Below, piece after piece: positions 1 to 16,724 of a stretch of 16,856 nt of DNA. The position numbers were made by a program, and so were the translations under genes. The notes below the pieces were generated by a model. It was not told the origin of the DNA. It did not search any database and worked only from the letters and a program-made list of their open reading frames with translations. How positions within the stretch are numbered: the first letter of the stretch is position 1; every line of letters starts with the position of its first letter. Source of the DNA: Akkermansia sp. (GTDB taxonomy: Bacteria > Verrucomicrobiota > Verrucomicrobiia > Verrucomicrobiales > Akkermansiaceae); contig JAFNWZ010000002.1 in the NCBI GenBank assembly GCA_017379255.1, positions 1 to 16,856 of the forward strand. The letters are read 5' to 3'.

Positions 1-208
1 CTGATACAACAAAAAAAAGACCCAATGCAACCTCTCCAAAATGTAGAGCAAAAGTCCATGACCTGATATCAGGAATGAGCTCCTGCACTAGCCGCGGGGT
101 AATATAGTTCGAGTCATGCAAAGAGCAATGCACCATGACAATCGTTAAAATGCAGACGAACTTTAAAGAGTTAAGAAAATCGGATTCTTTTTTATCTATT
201 GTAACCAT
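1..208 (-). CDS. Acyltransferase family 3 membrane protein, N-terminal part (cut by window edge)
   Basis: Reading the minus strand from the ATG at 208-206 gives 69 codons without a stop up to the window edge. Residues about 12-28 form a first membrane helix (FLNSLKFVCILTIVMVHCSL) of the type that opens acyltransferase-3 proteins, with the His in the usual place near its end. The visible part ends in GEVALGLFFVVS, which matches the family's second conserved block (gVdlFFvlSG). Such integral membrane enzymes move acetyl or other acyl groups onto surface polysaccharides, peptidoglycan or secondary products; which substrate is used here cannot be seen. There is no Shine-Dalgarno. The 38 bp leader has a TAGAAT box (247-252) but no good -35 in the present orientation; see the inverted repeat at 256-411. 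The family call is firm from two motifs, the specific role unknown. Confidence 0.75.
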   Translation of the reverse strand, partial: MVTIDKKESDFLNSLKFVCILTIVMVHCSLHDSNYITPRLVQELIPDIRSWTFALHFGEVALGLFFVVS

Positions 209-255
209 ATTCAGTGCAAAGCAAGCTTAACATTCTACCGTCCGCGATTCTACAC

Positions 256-411
256 TTTCATAATCCGTAAAAACTGGCTTTGCTTAGGGGCTACGTTAAG
301 ACAATAACAGCTTATCAGGCTATGCCCATGGCCTAAAACGAAACGATGTACCGAGTGTCGCAATTTTCTTGAAATCAAACAGGTTGTGAGCTTGACTTAC
401 GGATTATGAAA
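256..411. repeat. 15-bp inverted repeat bracketing a 126-bp segment (candidate invertible promoter)
   Basis: TTTCATAATCCGTAA at 256-270 recurs exactly, in inverted orientation, at 397-411. Between them are 126 bp (271-396) with no coding capacity. TTGACT at 392-397 sits at the inner edge of the right repeat, five of its bases inside the segment and the sixth being the repeat's first base. TAGAAT (minus strand, 247-252) lies just outside the left repeat. If 271-396 were inverted, the minus strand would read TTGACT, 17 bp, TAGAAT, followed 38 bp later by the acyltransferase ATG. As drawn, TTGACT instead faces right, 17 bp from TAAAAA (415-420). This is the layout of invertible promoters known from gut Bacteroides. 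Inversion itself is inferred, and no recombinase gene is in the window. Confidence 0.55.
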
Positions 412-420
412 CCATAAAAA
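392..420 (+). promoter_or_regulatory. Promoter-like -35/-10 facing right, straddling the inverted repeat
   Basis: TTGACT (392-397), a 17-bp spacer that contains the right inverted repeat, and TAAAAA (415-420). Transcription would start near 427 and run into non-coding DNA and then antisense to the lipoprotein genes at 695-1344. The -10 is only a fair match (four of six). Confidence 0.4.
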
Positions 421-478
421 ATGCCACGAACCCAGCACAAAGGCAAGCAAGGCTGGTCGGCGATACCGGTCAATGTGT

Positions 479-620
479 GCTTTGCTCGTACGCAAAGCGG
501 TGTATTTCCGCTATTTCACGCAGCGATTCATACAGCGCTGCATGGAACCGGCAAAGCGGCGAGCACAGCAGCGGGCATGAATGCTTTCGCGGACTTCATC
601 CCCGCATGTAGAGGTCGGCT
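479..620. repeat. Hairpin and possible decayed ATTTCAT hairpin array
   Basis: GCTTTGC/GCAAAGC (479-485/492-498, loop TCGTAC) is followed by ATTTC, ATTTCA, ATTCAT and CTTCAT words spaced by short GC-rich, partly palindromic pieces such as CAGCGCTG. The style resembles the intact array at 10830-11737, including a GGCAAAGC core found in one of its hairpins. The resemblance is by eye and may be chance. Confidence 0.25.
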
Positions 621-694
621 CACATGGGCACAAGTGGCTTTTCAAGCGAGGGCATAATCCTCCATGTGAGCCTCACTACTGCAAGCTGAGAATC

Positions 695-10832: not shown

Positions 10833-11737
10833 TATCGGCATTACATGCCGATAAATCATACCTGAGCGAAGCGAAGGTATTTCATACTCGCCTCCAGGCG
10901 AGTATTTCATGCGGCAAAGCCGCAATTCATACCGCAGTTTCTGCGGTATTTCATACACGCCAACGGCGTGTATTTCATTGAGGCCAGCGCAGCGGGCCGA
11001 CTGCCTGCCTGACGCGTCGAGAAATAGAAGGCACTGATTTCTCTACAAGCTTACGATACATGCATACACTCACCCTCGAAGCCGTACCGTCTCCGTATAC
11101 CCCCCACCATAGAACAGTCGCCCCGCTGGCGCGGGGGCTCAATGAAATACGCCCGGTGGGCGTATGAAATCCGGCGTTGCCGGATGAAATCCCTGGCTGA
11201 GCCATGGATGAAATACCGCTGCGCGGTATGAAATCCCGTCGCAGGCGCGCCGGGATGAGTGGTTTCCGGGCGCGATGATGGGAGCGGGCGTGTAATAGTC
11301 GCCCCGCTGGCGCGGGGCTCAATGAAATACGCCCGGCGGGCGTATGAAATCCGGCGTTGCCGGATGAAATCCCTGGCTGCGCCATGGATGAAATACCGCT
11401 GCGCGGTATGAAATCCCGGTGCTGGCGCGCCGGGATGAGTGATTTCCGGGCGCGATGATGGGAGCGGGCGTGTAATAGTCGCCCCCGCTAGCGCGGGGGC
11501 TCAATGAAATACGCCCGGCGGGCGTATGAAATCCGGCGTTGCCGGATGAAATCCCTGGCTGCGCCATGGATGAAATACCGCTGCGCGGTATGAAATCCCG
11601 TCGCAGGCGCGCCGGGATGAGTGGTTTCCGGGCGCGATAATGGGAGCGGGCGCGTAATAGTCGCCCCGCTGGCGGTGCATGAAATCCTTTGCTGGCGCAA
11701 AGGGTGAAATACCTTCGCTACGCTCAGGTATATAAAA
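10830..11737. repeat. Array of diverse hairpins joined by constant ATTTCAT/ATGAAAT linkers
   Basis: About 900 bp hold a chain of short perfect or near-perfect palindromes, each different in sequence, separated by the same 7-bp word. Left arm (linker ATTTCAT): stems at 10830-10856, 10858-10880, 10886-10903, 10911-10923 (GCGGC/GCCGC), 10931-10947 (ACCGCAG/CTGCGGT), 10955-10971 (ACACGCC/GGCGTGT). Right arm (linker ATGAAAT, the inverse): CCCCGC/GCGGGG, ACGCCC/GGGCGT, CCGGC/GCCGG, GGC/GCC within CCTGGCTGCGCCATGG, ACCGC/GCGGT, repeated in three large units, then CCTTTGC/GCAAAGG near 11686-11703. Because stem halves vary together while the linker is fixed, structure rather than sequence appears conserved. 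It lies between hpf and the 3' end of a minus-strand operon. I recall no named family. Confidence 0.85.
11117..11659. repeat. Three tandem 180-182 bp units within the hairpin array
   Basis: Units at 11117-11297 (181 bp), 11298-11477 (180 bp) and 11478-11659 (182 bp) each begin GTCGCCCC and carry the same six hairpins plus a linker ending GGGAGCGGGCG(T/C)GTAATA. A fourth copy starts at 11660 and breaks off after about 17 bp. Differences are few and often lie in stems or loops. Confidence 0.9.
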
Positions 11738-11775
11738 CAAAGCGGGCGGCCACCGGCACAGACCGGAAGCCGCCC
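11731..11775 (-). terminator. Terminator of the transglutaminase-like/thioredoxin-like operon
   Basis: On the minus strand GGGCGGC (11775-11769) pairs with GCCGCCC (11750-11744), with an inner CCGG/CCGG stem, followed by GCTTTGTTTTATA. It lies about 20 bp past the stop at 11794 and directly abuts the hairpin array. Confidence 0.75.
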
Positions 11776-11793
11776 CCGACAAAATCCAGGCAA

Positions 11794-13254
11794 TCAGAGC
11801 TTCTTCATAACCATCTCGCCAGCGCAGCCGAACCAACCATCGAAACACTGCACCTTGAAGCGCACTTCAACCCTGCCCTTAAGCGCACGCGGAACATCAA
11901 ACGTCACCGTCTTCGTATCCTTATCCGCAGGCTCATTGGCATCGCACACATGCTTACCATTGGCATACAGCTGGAATCCCTTGGAAGTCATGCGCCCCAT
12001 CTTGCAAGGCACCAGGGTGAACGAGTAGGCACCCGGGCCCTTTACCTGCTTGCCCACATTGACGCGCCATTCCTTTTCGAAACCAACCGTCATCTCACCG
12101 CTATCGTAGTAAGGTTCGTCAAACACGTACGGGAACTCATCATCCCAGTAATTAGCCCAGCGCAAAGCGCCCTTGCCGTATTCACTCTTGGGATCAATCT
12201 TCACCACCTGGCGGTATATCTGCACCAGCTTTTTGCGCAAAGCGGGTTCCTTGGTGGCATTGTACTTCTCGCGGTACACGTATGCGAGGCCGGAGTTCCA
12301 CTGCTGCTGGAGCTCATCCTTCAGCTTGCGGGACTTCATCACCTTCTCCACAAAGGCAATACCTTCATCGAACTTACGTTCATTGCCCTTGTACTTGGCA
12401 TCAGCCCCCTTACCACCATTCAGCACGGCGTTAATCTCATCGAACATCCCCATGTGGTCCATGCAATAGAGATAGCGGGCCATGGTTGCATGCTCCGGGT
12501 CCTTACGCTTCAGGATATCCTTCAGCATGTTATTGCGCACCGCATCCGGATACGGCATCATATCCAGCGCATCAGCAGCCGCCTTCGCGCCTTCAATGCC
12601 ATCCACCGTGCGAGCCTTTTCCACCATCTTCATGTACTTCGGCGCGCGCGCCAGTGTCTGCTTCACCGCTTTTTCCATAGCGGCGGCACTCAGCACGGTC
12701 TTGCCCGTGTAAATGCCCAGCAGCGTCTCATCAGAAGCCAGCAACACAGCCGCCGGAAGATTGAAGAACGGGCCGCAGGGCAGCAGCTTATCGCGGTCGT
12801 GCAGGTTCGGCACAACACCCACGCGTTCATCAATCTGACCGAACACCACCGGCAGACCCTTTTTCTCCAGCTTAGTCCATTCGCTCACCACCTTGCCAGC
12901 GCAGGGCAGCCAGTCAGAGCCATACCAGATGATGAGGGAAGGTACACCTTCCGCCTTAGCCTTGGCGCGGGCCTCCATATTATCCAGGAAACTCAGCGGG
13001 CTCGCAGCAGGTTCAGCCGGGGCCATTTCCTCCTCTTCCTCAGGTGCATCCTGGGCGGTGGAAGCCTCTGCGGCATCTGCCGCTGCCTCAGCCGCGGGCT
13101 TCTCTGCCTTCTTCTTCTTTTTGGCCTTTTTGCCCTTCTTTACTTTCTTTGCAGACTTGGCGGGAGCATCCAGCCCCAGCAAACCGGGGTCATAATAATA
13201 GACACCACCTGCAGCAAGCCCCAGCAGAATCAGGAATATGAAAAACTTCTTCAT
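11794..13254 (-). CDS. Thioredoxin-like membrane-anchored protein with C-terminal beta domain
   Basis: 486 residues. MKKFFIFLILLGLAAGGVYYY is a signal anchor. Residues about 33-52 are a poly-lysine stretch and about 53-85 an Ala/Glu-rich acidic linker, so the rest is held away from the membrane. Residues about 90-200 look thioredoxin-like (VPSLIIWYGSDWLPC, then LPCGPFFNLPAAVLL), but the usual CxxC is reduced to one cysteine, Cys118, so ordinary disulfide exchange is doubtful. A helical, TPR-like middle follows, then about 100 residues of beta sandwich (WRVNVGKQVKGPGAYSFTLVP, FQLYANGKHV) resembling carbohydrate- or ligand-binding modules. It begins 17 bp after the transglutaminase-like gene and shares its transcript and terminator. 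Family function is unknown. Confidence 0.75.
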   Translation of the reverse strand: MKKFFIFLILLGLAAGGVYYYDPGLLGLDAPAKSAKKVKKGKKAKKKKKAEKPAAEAAADAAEASTAQDAPEEEEEMAPAEPAASPLSFLDNMEARAKAKAEGVPSLIIWYGSDWLPCAGKVVSEWTKLEKKGLPVVFGQIDERVGVVPNLHDRDKLLPCGPFFNLPAAVLLASDETLLGIYTGKTVLSAAAMEKAVKQTLARAPKYMKMVEKARTVDGIEGAKAAADALDMMPYPDAVRNNMLKDILKRKDPEHATMARYLYCMDHMGMFDEINAVLNGGKGADAKYKGNERKFDEGIAFVEKVMKSRKLKDELQQQWNSGLAYVYREKYNATKEPALRKKLVQIYRQVVKIDPKSEYGKGALRWANYWDDEFPYVFDEPYYDSGEMTVGFEKEWRVNVGKQVKGPGAYSFTLVPCKMGRMTSKGFQLYANGKHVCDANEPADKDTKTVTFDVPRALKGRVEVRFKVQCFDGWFGCAGEMVMKKL

Positions 13255-15643: not shown

Positions 15644-16297
15644 TTAGCGGCGACGGCGGGCGCAAAGACCAGCCAGAGCCAGCAGGCTCAGGGTAGCGGT
15701 AGCAGGCTCGGGAACGGATTCCGTTGCACCAGGAGTGCTCATCGTCAGGCTGACCACGGGAACGTAGTTACCTTCCCAGCTGTTAAGGCCGCTGCTCTTG
15801 TAGGTACCCCAGCCACCAGGAATCTGCCCAGAGAAGCCGTTAGTCACAGCAACACCCCAGGTCATAGAAGCGGCCTTGTACTGATCAAAGGTAGCAAGGT
15901 CAGTAGCGGTGGTGTTCACGAAGAGGAACTGATAACGCTTTGTCGGGTCAATGGTGATGGCATCAAAAGAGAACTCCACAGCCGTATCGGCAGTGAAAGA
16001 AGCATCCTCGGAAACACCAAGATAAACACCTGTCGTACTGTCACCGGTATACTCATACACAGCCACGCGAGCAGCATCGCTAGAGCCACCGGAGCGGGTC
16101 TGAATAGTGATGGAATCCAGGTTCAGCAGACCAGTGAAATCAGCGGGGATATCGGTCGTCAGGTAAGTGGCATTGGCCGGAGCCAGAGTGAAACCATAGT
16201 AGTTACCCTGGTTGTTTTTATCAGGAGTGCTGGAGGTGTAGGTATCAGCTGCAGCCACACCAGCAAGAGCCATCAGAGCAATAATTGTCTTCTTCAT
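15644..16297 (-). CDS. PEP-CTERM sorted secreted protein
   Basis: 217 residues. MKKTIIALMALAGVAAA is a signal peptide. The body is Thr/Ser/Asp-rich and predicted beta (TSSTPDKNNQGNYYGFTLAP, DSITIQTRSGGSS, VAVYEYTG). The C-terminus is a PEP-CTERM signal: VPEP at about 195-198, a hydrophobic helix ATLSLLALAGLCA, and RRRR at the end. Exosortase cuts such signals after export and leaves the protein at the surface, usually with extracellular polysaccharide. The frame stays open upstream to 16438, but those 47 residues look non-coding and the signal peptide begins at 16297, which also fits the promoter position. No domain beyond the sorting signal is recognised. Confidence 0.85.
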   Translation of the reverse strand: MKKTIIALMALAGVAAADTYTSSTPDKNNQGNYYGFTLAPANATYLTTDIPADFTGLLNLDSITIQTRSGGSSDAARVAVYEYTGDSTTGVYLGVSEDASFTADTAVEFSFDAITIDPTKRYQFLFVNTTATDLATFDQYKAASMTWGVAVTNGFSGQIPGGWGTYKSSGLNSWEGNYVPVVSLTMSTPGATESVPEPATATLSLLALAGLCARRRR

Positions 16298-16307
16298 ATT
16301 TGTGTTG

Positions 16308-16336
16308 ATTATGTAGGTAGGAACAGTGCAGTGCAA
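16308..16336 (-). promoter_or_regulatory. Promoter of the PEP-CTERM gene, near-leaderless
   Basis: On the minus strand TTGCAC (16331-16336), 17-bp spacer, CATAAT (16308-16313), then 10 bp to the ATG at 16297. The 5' leader would be only a few nucleotides; no Shine-Dalgarno is present. Confidence 0.55.
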
Positions 16337-16392
16337 CGCCACTTCCTCGTACGGTGGAATGGTTGGCAGCCACACCTGCGCCACCATGGTAA

Positions 16393-16724
16393 CGCATTTC
16401 CTGTGCGATGTCCAGACTAAATTTTGCAAACTCTTCACTTTTGTATCATTTACATCAGCCAGAGAGAAACGACTTTAAACCCATACTTCACGCATCTCCG
16501 GGAATAAATATCAACAAAAAAACTATTTCATCCAGATGAGGTATTGTTCTATCCGGAAAGGAAACTTTAGCATACATAATTTAACCAGTATCCTTTTTTC
16601 CGGTGTTTCATGCAGATAAAATAACAGGAGTATAACCAAAATCATTATAGCCTTTTATAATGACCTTTCTTTGCCGAATACCGGGAATCGTTGTAAGGCC
16701 GTGGGACATCGCACAGGAAATGCG
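16393..16724. repeat. 21-bp perfect inverted repeat 290 bp apart upstream of the PEP-CTERM gene
   Basis: The 21 bp at 16393-16413 recur exactly inverted at 16704-16724. Each copy contains CGCA-TTTCCTG-TGCG: short inverted arms around an asymmetric 7-bp centre, the shape of a tyrosine-recombinase crossover site. At the right copy the arms extend to 8 bp (ACATCGCA/TGCGATGT). The enclosed 290 bp hold no gene. Inversion of this piece, or insertion of a small non-autonomous element, are both possible. Confidence 0.5.

Follow-up and report, generated by a model that had tools for sequence, protein, structure and literature searches.

The locus analysed here raises the question of whether a short inverted repeat close to one end of an Akkermansia contig is an invertible promoter, which gene such a promoter would control and whether the switch can still turn. 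The window, by which we mean the whole stretch of 16,856 nucleotides under analysis, is contig C25 of the genome G000 (2.5 Mb in 457 contigs); the 76 genus genomes used for comparison are labelled Gnnn, contigs are labelled C, and an element is named after its genome and contig, as in G026C28. A sequence-only reading of the window had proposed a promoter inverton, lying in its OFF state, ahead of an acyltransferase gene. We consider it very likely that positions 256-411 are a promoter inverton with the -35 hexamer inside and the -10 hexamer outside the invertible segment, which would drive phase-variable acylation of a surface glycan. The argument makes use of the following features.

1-208, minus strand: N-terminal part (69 codons) of a membrane acyltransferase of the Acyl_transf_3 family, truncated where the contig ends
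247-252, minus strand: TAGAAT, the -10 hexamer, which lies beyond the invertible segment in a fixed place beside the acyltransferase; a distance of 17 bp to TTGACT is predicted for the inverted state only
256-270: left arm of the inverted repeat, TTTCATAATCCGTAA, containing AATCCG and, as centre triplet, CAT, which reads ATG on the opposite strand
256-411: invertible segment of 156 bp, pointing away from the acyltransferase as written (OFF)
342-397, plus strand: conserved promoter half ending in the -35 hexamer TTGACT (392-397), supported by BLAST and by column counts over 29 elements
397-411: right arm of the inverted repeat, complementary to 256-270 at 15/15 positions, doubling as promoter spacer
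421-654, plus strand: decayed remnant of an Xer-like tyrosine recombinase, frameshifted and without the catalytic C-terminal part
690-695: approximate right-hand boundary of the cassette; the match with the genome G040 restarts at 695 (94% over 472 nt)
3-824 of contig C334 in G000: probable C-terminal 273 codons of the acyltransferase (PF01757, 37.6 bits, profile positions 65-320)

First, the parts of the proposed switch are present in the window. The arms pair perfectly and enclose 126 nt, TTGACT stands at 392-397 as had been claimed, the acyltransferase start was correctly placed at 208 on the minus strand, and inversion would indeed bring TTGACT to 17 bp from TAGAAT (252-247, minus strand). 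In the orientation as written, the hexamer at the corresponding -35 position is AGTTTT, which matches TTGACA at 0/6 positions when compared by eye, so that the earlier remark about a poor -35 was justified. When the window was shuffled 200 times with dinucleotides preserved, one shuffle contained a perfect inverted pair of 15 bp whose starts were separated by 20-400 nt, and the window itself holds two, namely the arms and an unrelated 21-bp pair at 16393/16704. Allowing at most 3 mismatches, the arm occurs twice in the window against 0.18 copies expected, and 71 times in G000 against 15 for a reversed-pattern control. A second TAGAAT (237-232, minus strand) lies 18 bp from ATGAAA inside the arm; this spacing exists in both orientations and could support orientation-independent basal transcription. 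Since positions 1-1400 contain 2 promoter-like sites against 1.2 in shuffles, this second promoter may also be due to chance.

Second, the window element belongs to a family that occurs in a limited part of the genus. Searching the 76 genomes with a strict pattern (AATCCGTAA, 105-135 nt, TTACGGATT, with exact arms) identified 29 elements in 9 genomes, including six in G000, and thereby the further copies of the repeat that the sequence-only reading had suggested looking for; the reversed control of this pattern gave no element in the same genomes. All 29 elements have a half ending GCTTGACTTACGGATT, the last nine bases of which belonged to the search pattern while GCTTGAC did not, and GCTTGAC lies just inside one arm in 29/29 elements and is missing from the other. 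Within G000, the promoter half at 342-397 is 75-88% identical to its sister elements by BLAST, and of the four elements compared along their length the closest to the window copy were G026C28 (116/146 aligned positions) and G034C89 (115/144). The three bases beside CGGATT are of nine kinds over the 29 elements and are equal in both arms in 28/28, whereas position 6 is equal in only 12/28. Such a locus-specific, arm-matched triplet is what would be expected of a crossover region, because the two sites of a recombining pair have to be alike, while sites at other loci may differ. The outer half-sites of the window element, AAAGTG and AAACCA, fit the published AATCCG poorly, and AATCCG is found in 6 of the 10 arms of five elements in G005. 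We dropped an interpretation of CGGATT..AATCCG as two opposite arms, as the G005 sites read better as one site of the form CGGATT-NNN-AATCCG.

Two G000 elements fell outside the 29, those on C278 (diverged arm) and C443 (contig end). The latter shares 119 identical nt with C308 (L061 7803-7921 and L058 116-234), although the recombinase-side flanks of these two loci do show a few differences, which may reflect recent copying, exchange between loci or a mixture of strains.

Third, the position of the -10 hexamer follows a rule across this family. For the counts that follow, G000C121 was excluded on account of identical flanks on both sides, leaving 28 elements; the target side of G035C30 was reassigned by hand because it lacks a recombinase match and a surface-protein start lies on the other flank, and G000C65 and G015C24, which have a recombinase on neither flank, were counted as pointing towards their target. 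Counted from TTGACT into the target flank, TANNNT occurs at 17 bp in 24 and at 18 bp in three elements (27/28 in total), compared with 0/28 at these spacings on the other flank and at most 2 at any remaining offset from 12 to 39. The same holds for the 25 elements in which one flank contains recombinase sequence, evidence that amounts to 33 bits for the window copy and to only 21 bits for G034C89: TANNNT lies opposite the recombinase in all of them (22 at 17 bp and 3 at 18 bp) and on the recombinase flank in 0/25. This confinement of TANNNT to the target flank argues that the -35 lies inside and the -10 outside the segment; the -10 would stay with the gene while the -35 moves, and inversion would join the two. 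It also bears out the proposal that the DNA as written represents the OFF state. The earlier suggestion that the present orientation may give RNA antisense to the lipoprotein genes found little support. The side that the -35 now faces offers just TAAAAA at 17 bp, and TANNNT is found on the recombinase-type side in 0/28 elements, and we therefore regard antisense transcription into these genes as unsupported. We take the rule as shown for the nine-genome clade only. It is weaker in G005, in which the 17-bp hexamers near the likely targets of five elements are TAATAG, TAATTA or poor (TGAGCT, at an acyltransferase gene); a sixth AATCCG pair of that genome is due to chance and was left aside.

Moreover, the elements are found in both orientations. 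As assembled, 21 of the 28 point away from their target (OFF) and 7 towards it (ON). Among eight pairs with target flanks homologous from close to the element outwards, five agree in orientation (all OFF) and three are opposite, namely G034C89 versus G026C28, G034C89 versus G043C104 and G000C308 versus G035C31. For example, G034C89 (ON) and G026C28 (OFF) are identical at 125/144 positions of the core and at 86/103 over the first 100 nt of the target flank, and the genes farther out are not alike; G000C308 (ON) and G035C31 (OFF) precede similar surface proteins, and their cores match at 104/160 positions. In addition, the end of C121 carries an exact inverted copy (43/43 nt) of the recombinase-side flank, with arms of 16 nt (L056 6246-6443). 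Such a mirrored flank would fit reads in both orientations and may be an assembly trace of them, but it is no more than suggestive.

Twelve of the 28 targets begin with an MKLHLP-type leader of large repeat proteins and look like surface repeat proteins, and the five of these that were checked with Pfam gave PATR, Chlam_PMP or PEP-CTERM matches. Acyltransferases account for 7/28 targets including that of the window. The six others comprise one MBOAT and five Acyl_transf_3 proteins: the target of G034C89, about 280 nt from its element, and four more, among them one with an SGNH domain and two near-identical orthologues (G015C6 and G026C43, 94% identical over 998 nt and hence not independent). 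Among the nine remaining targets are two flavin oxidoreductases, which lie about 400 nt from their elements, a glycosyltransferase of the DXD type, a DUF6056 protein, another protein that matches DUF6567 below threshold, and proteins that have no Pfam match or were unscanned. A site of the same type also adjoins an Acyl_transf_3 gene in G005, with a poor -10 at 17 bp, and a Pfam scan of the likely G005 target L218 gave no match.

For the window itself, a surface or glycan gene downstream of the switch is represented by Acyl_transf_3 pieces, of which the N-terminal one by itself is below the Pfam cut-off (PF01757, E 5e-4, 19.6 bits against a curated cut-off of 31, profile positions 3-55). The piece on C334 probably continues it across a join that the assembly never made. 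Sequence comparison found no overlap between the contig ends of the window and C334, and their adjacency is suggested by the order of the PF01757 profile and by the next gene on C334, a primase-like gene (presumably dnaG) that also borders the empty site in the close relative G040. In that genome about 20 nt separate the end of the primase-like gene from sequence matching window position 695, and a cassette of acyltransferase, switch and recombinase would thus be present in G000 and absent from G040. No orthologue of the window acyltransferase was detected in the other 75 genus genomes (N-terminal piece at E 0.001, C-terminal piece at E 1e-8) in searches that begin with a loose first pass and that distant forms may escape. 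The substrate would be a surface glycan.

Further repeats were noted elsewhere in the window. The perfect 21-bp inverted repeat (16393-16413/16704-16724, 290 nt between arms) surrounds the start side of an ORF for a PEP-CTERM-like protein (15644-16438, minus strand); its arms show no relation to the CGGATT family and, except for one match with 3 mismatches, have no further copy in the genome, and it could be another kind of inverton. A 21-nt repeat (833-853/1327-1347, 95%) covers the minus-strand start of an HKP-rich lipoprotein-like ORF (886-1344), and in its 833-853 copy an ATG near 850 corresponds to that start, so that another short gene with this leader may lie there. Finally, overlapping ORFs at 10975-11850 repeat MAQPGISSGNAGFHTPAGRISLSP in a short-unit tract between genes.

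Fourth, the family points to a candidate enzyme. The gene that typically adjoins an element encodes an Xer-like tyrosine recombinase (PF00589, Phage_integrase), with relatives in 75/76 genus genomes at E 1e-40. A search of G000 for tyrosine recombinases, as had been recommended, returned nine family matches at this threshold, including a C337 copy cut by the contig end and five full-length copies of 334-345 aa on C121, C228, C359, C278 and C443. A recombinase profile run against a named genome collection matched 49 loci, 47 of them titled Akkermansia or Akkermansiaceae (40 of the 47 from ruminant gut sites, judging by title), the rest being one uncultured Akkermansia and one weak Massilia match. 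We propose that this recombinase would recombine the two arms and flip the segment between them, acting on a site composed of CGGATT, a 3-nt centre and an outer half-site beginning AA. With the -35 (TTGAC) just inside one arm, the arm as spacer and the -10 outside beside the target gene, the promoter TTGACT-17-TAGAAT would be assembled only when the -35 end lies next to the acyltransferase, and a surface glycan would as a result be acylated (probably O-acetylated) in a phase-variable manner.

The recombinase next to the window element is dead, and the switch may therefore be frozen. In blastn comparisons the remnant aligns at 504-561 (up to 84%) and 573-653 (77%), colinear with intact copies, and tblastn places its segments in two different frames, which is also seen in the three-frame translation. 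With this frameshifted and truncated gene as its neighbour, the element could be a fossil switch, a former inverton locked OFF after loss of its recombinase, with the acyltransferase silent or served by a weak basal promoter only. The centre triplet ATG is in keeping with such a history, as among the G000 elements compared it is shared only with that on C65, a contig that is likewise without a recombinase. However, the arms still match at 15/15 positions, the promoter half and the -10 still fit the family as if they had been kept, and the five full-length homologous recombinases are encoded in the same genome, with the CGGATT half-site in the elements adjoining C121, C228 and C359 and in the single visible arm at C443 (the element next to the C278 enzyme has CGAATT). 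We therefore regard permanent loss of switching as rather unlikely, though worth serious consideration. Given that its own copy has decayed, flipping of the promoter inverton that we favour would depend on a recombinase encoded at another locus of the genome, and the window copy, if it still flips, would be served by one of these homologues.

We also considered whether the element is a dispersed, MITE-like mobile repeat with terminal inverted repeats and no switch function. Repeats of about 155 bp with inverted ends are indeed dispersed in one genome, several of them beside an integrase-like gene, and the site in G040 is empty, but 27/28 elements keep a constant distance of 17-18 bp to the -10, their orientation varies before homologous flanks, and G040 is missing the whole cassette including the acyltransferase and not just the 156-bp element, which makes this explanation very improbable. 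A transcription-factor palindrome or chance repeat with a coincidental promoter match is scarcely credible, for although promoter-like hexamers are common enough (2 against 1.2, as given above), such an inverted repeat appeared in one shuffle of 200 and 28 further elements share the arms and the half-element, nearly all with the -10 in place. The family comparison thus contradicts it, and both of these explanations were rejected.

A promoter inverton at this locus is in line with what is known from the genus. The motif CGGATT..AATCCG is reportedly due to Jiang et al. 2019. The accessible text of PMC13343947 describes a cps1 inverton of Akkermansia with this motif and with reads in both orientations, links its ON and OFF states to the capsule and records both states in mice and humans. 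In the part of PMC11892184 available, 32 of the 39 invertons in inverton group 138 are from A. muciniphila, the inverted-repeat and promoter motifs of the group match earlier published ones, and an inverton of the group near autotransporter proteins changed orientation over mouse generations; the placement of the Akkermansia promoter motif is described there as promoter-like at lower confidence, having missed that paper's cut-off of p < 0.001. The window element resembles these published invertons in genus, in the CGGATT inner half-site, in its location at a surface or glycan gene and in its ON/OFF logic, and it too has a promoter element inside the segment that points out through one arm (TTGACT at 392-397 in the window, GCTTGAC in 29/29 elements). 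It differs in its acyltransferase target, in the decay of its own recombinase and in its outer half-sites (AAAGTG and AAACCA against the published AATCCG), and the relatives of its species are mostly MAGs from ruminant guts. Promoter invertons of Akkermansia are thus already published, and the window copy is notable as an orphan with an acyltransferase target. The accessible parts of PMC13343947 and PMC11892184 name no recombinase for these invertons, and the word recombinase does not occur in the former; PMC13055324, as far as its accessible text goes, concerns slippage in a G tract, and that of PMC8278651 only cites inversion work. In the library searched, we found no report that brings together Akkermansia, an invertible element, an integrase and an acyltransferase, and none of such a split promoter, which does not prove absence.

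Comparable systems outside the genus share some of these properties. In Bacteroides fragilis, the capsule promoters under the control of Mpi likewise form a large set of inverting promoters within a single genome, located ahead of surface-glycan genes. The enzyme Mpi belongs to the serine recombinases and acts on many sites, with each promoter wholly inside the inverting segment, whereas here most elements adjoin a tyrosine recombinase gene and only the -35 would move. Programmed DNA inversions in Streptococcus pneumoniae are reportedly tied to acetylation, in this case the O-acetylation state of peptidoglycan (PMC12324116); this system is from another phylum, and the likeness lies in a DNA inversion linked to an acetylation phenotype.

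Taken further, the family may represent a cassette system of one or more Akkermansia clades, in which only the -35 moves, a resident -10 marks the target and the arm serves as spacer, while a locus-specific 3-nt centre would keep loci apart and a shared half-site would permit action in trans; the window copy would then be an orphan that uses the enzymes of its sisters for phase-variable acylation of a surface glycan. We put this broader picture forward tentatively, giving it somewhat less than an even chance. Our findings would add acyltransferases to the capsule and autotransporter-like genes for which promoter inversion is known in Akkermansia, and they point to the tyrosine recombinase family most likely to be responsible. 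Moreover, the clade rule of a -35 inside and a -10 outside at 17-18 bp would make both the target and the ON/OFF state of an element readable from sequence, and the orphan element beside intact sisters would allow the action of a recombinase in trans to be tested directly.
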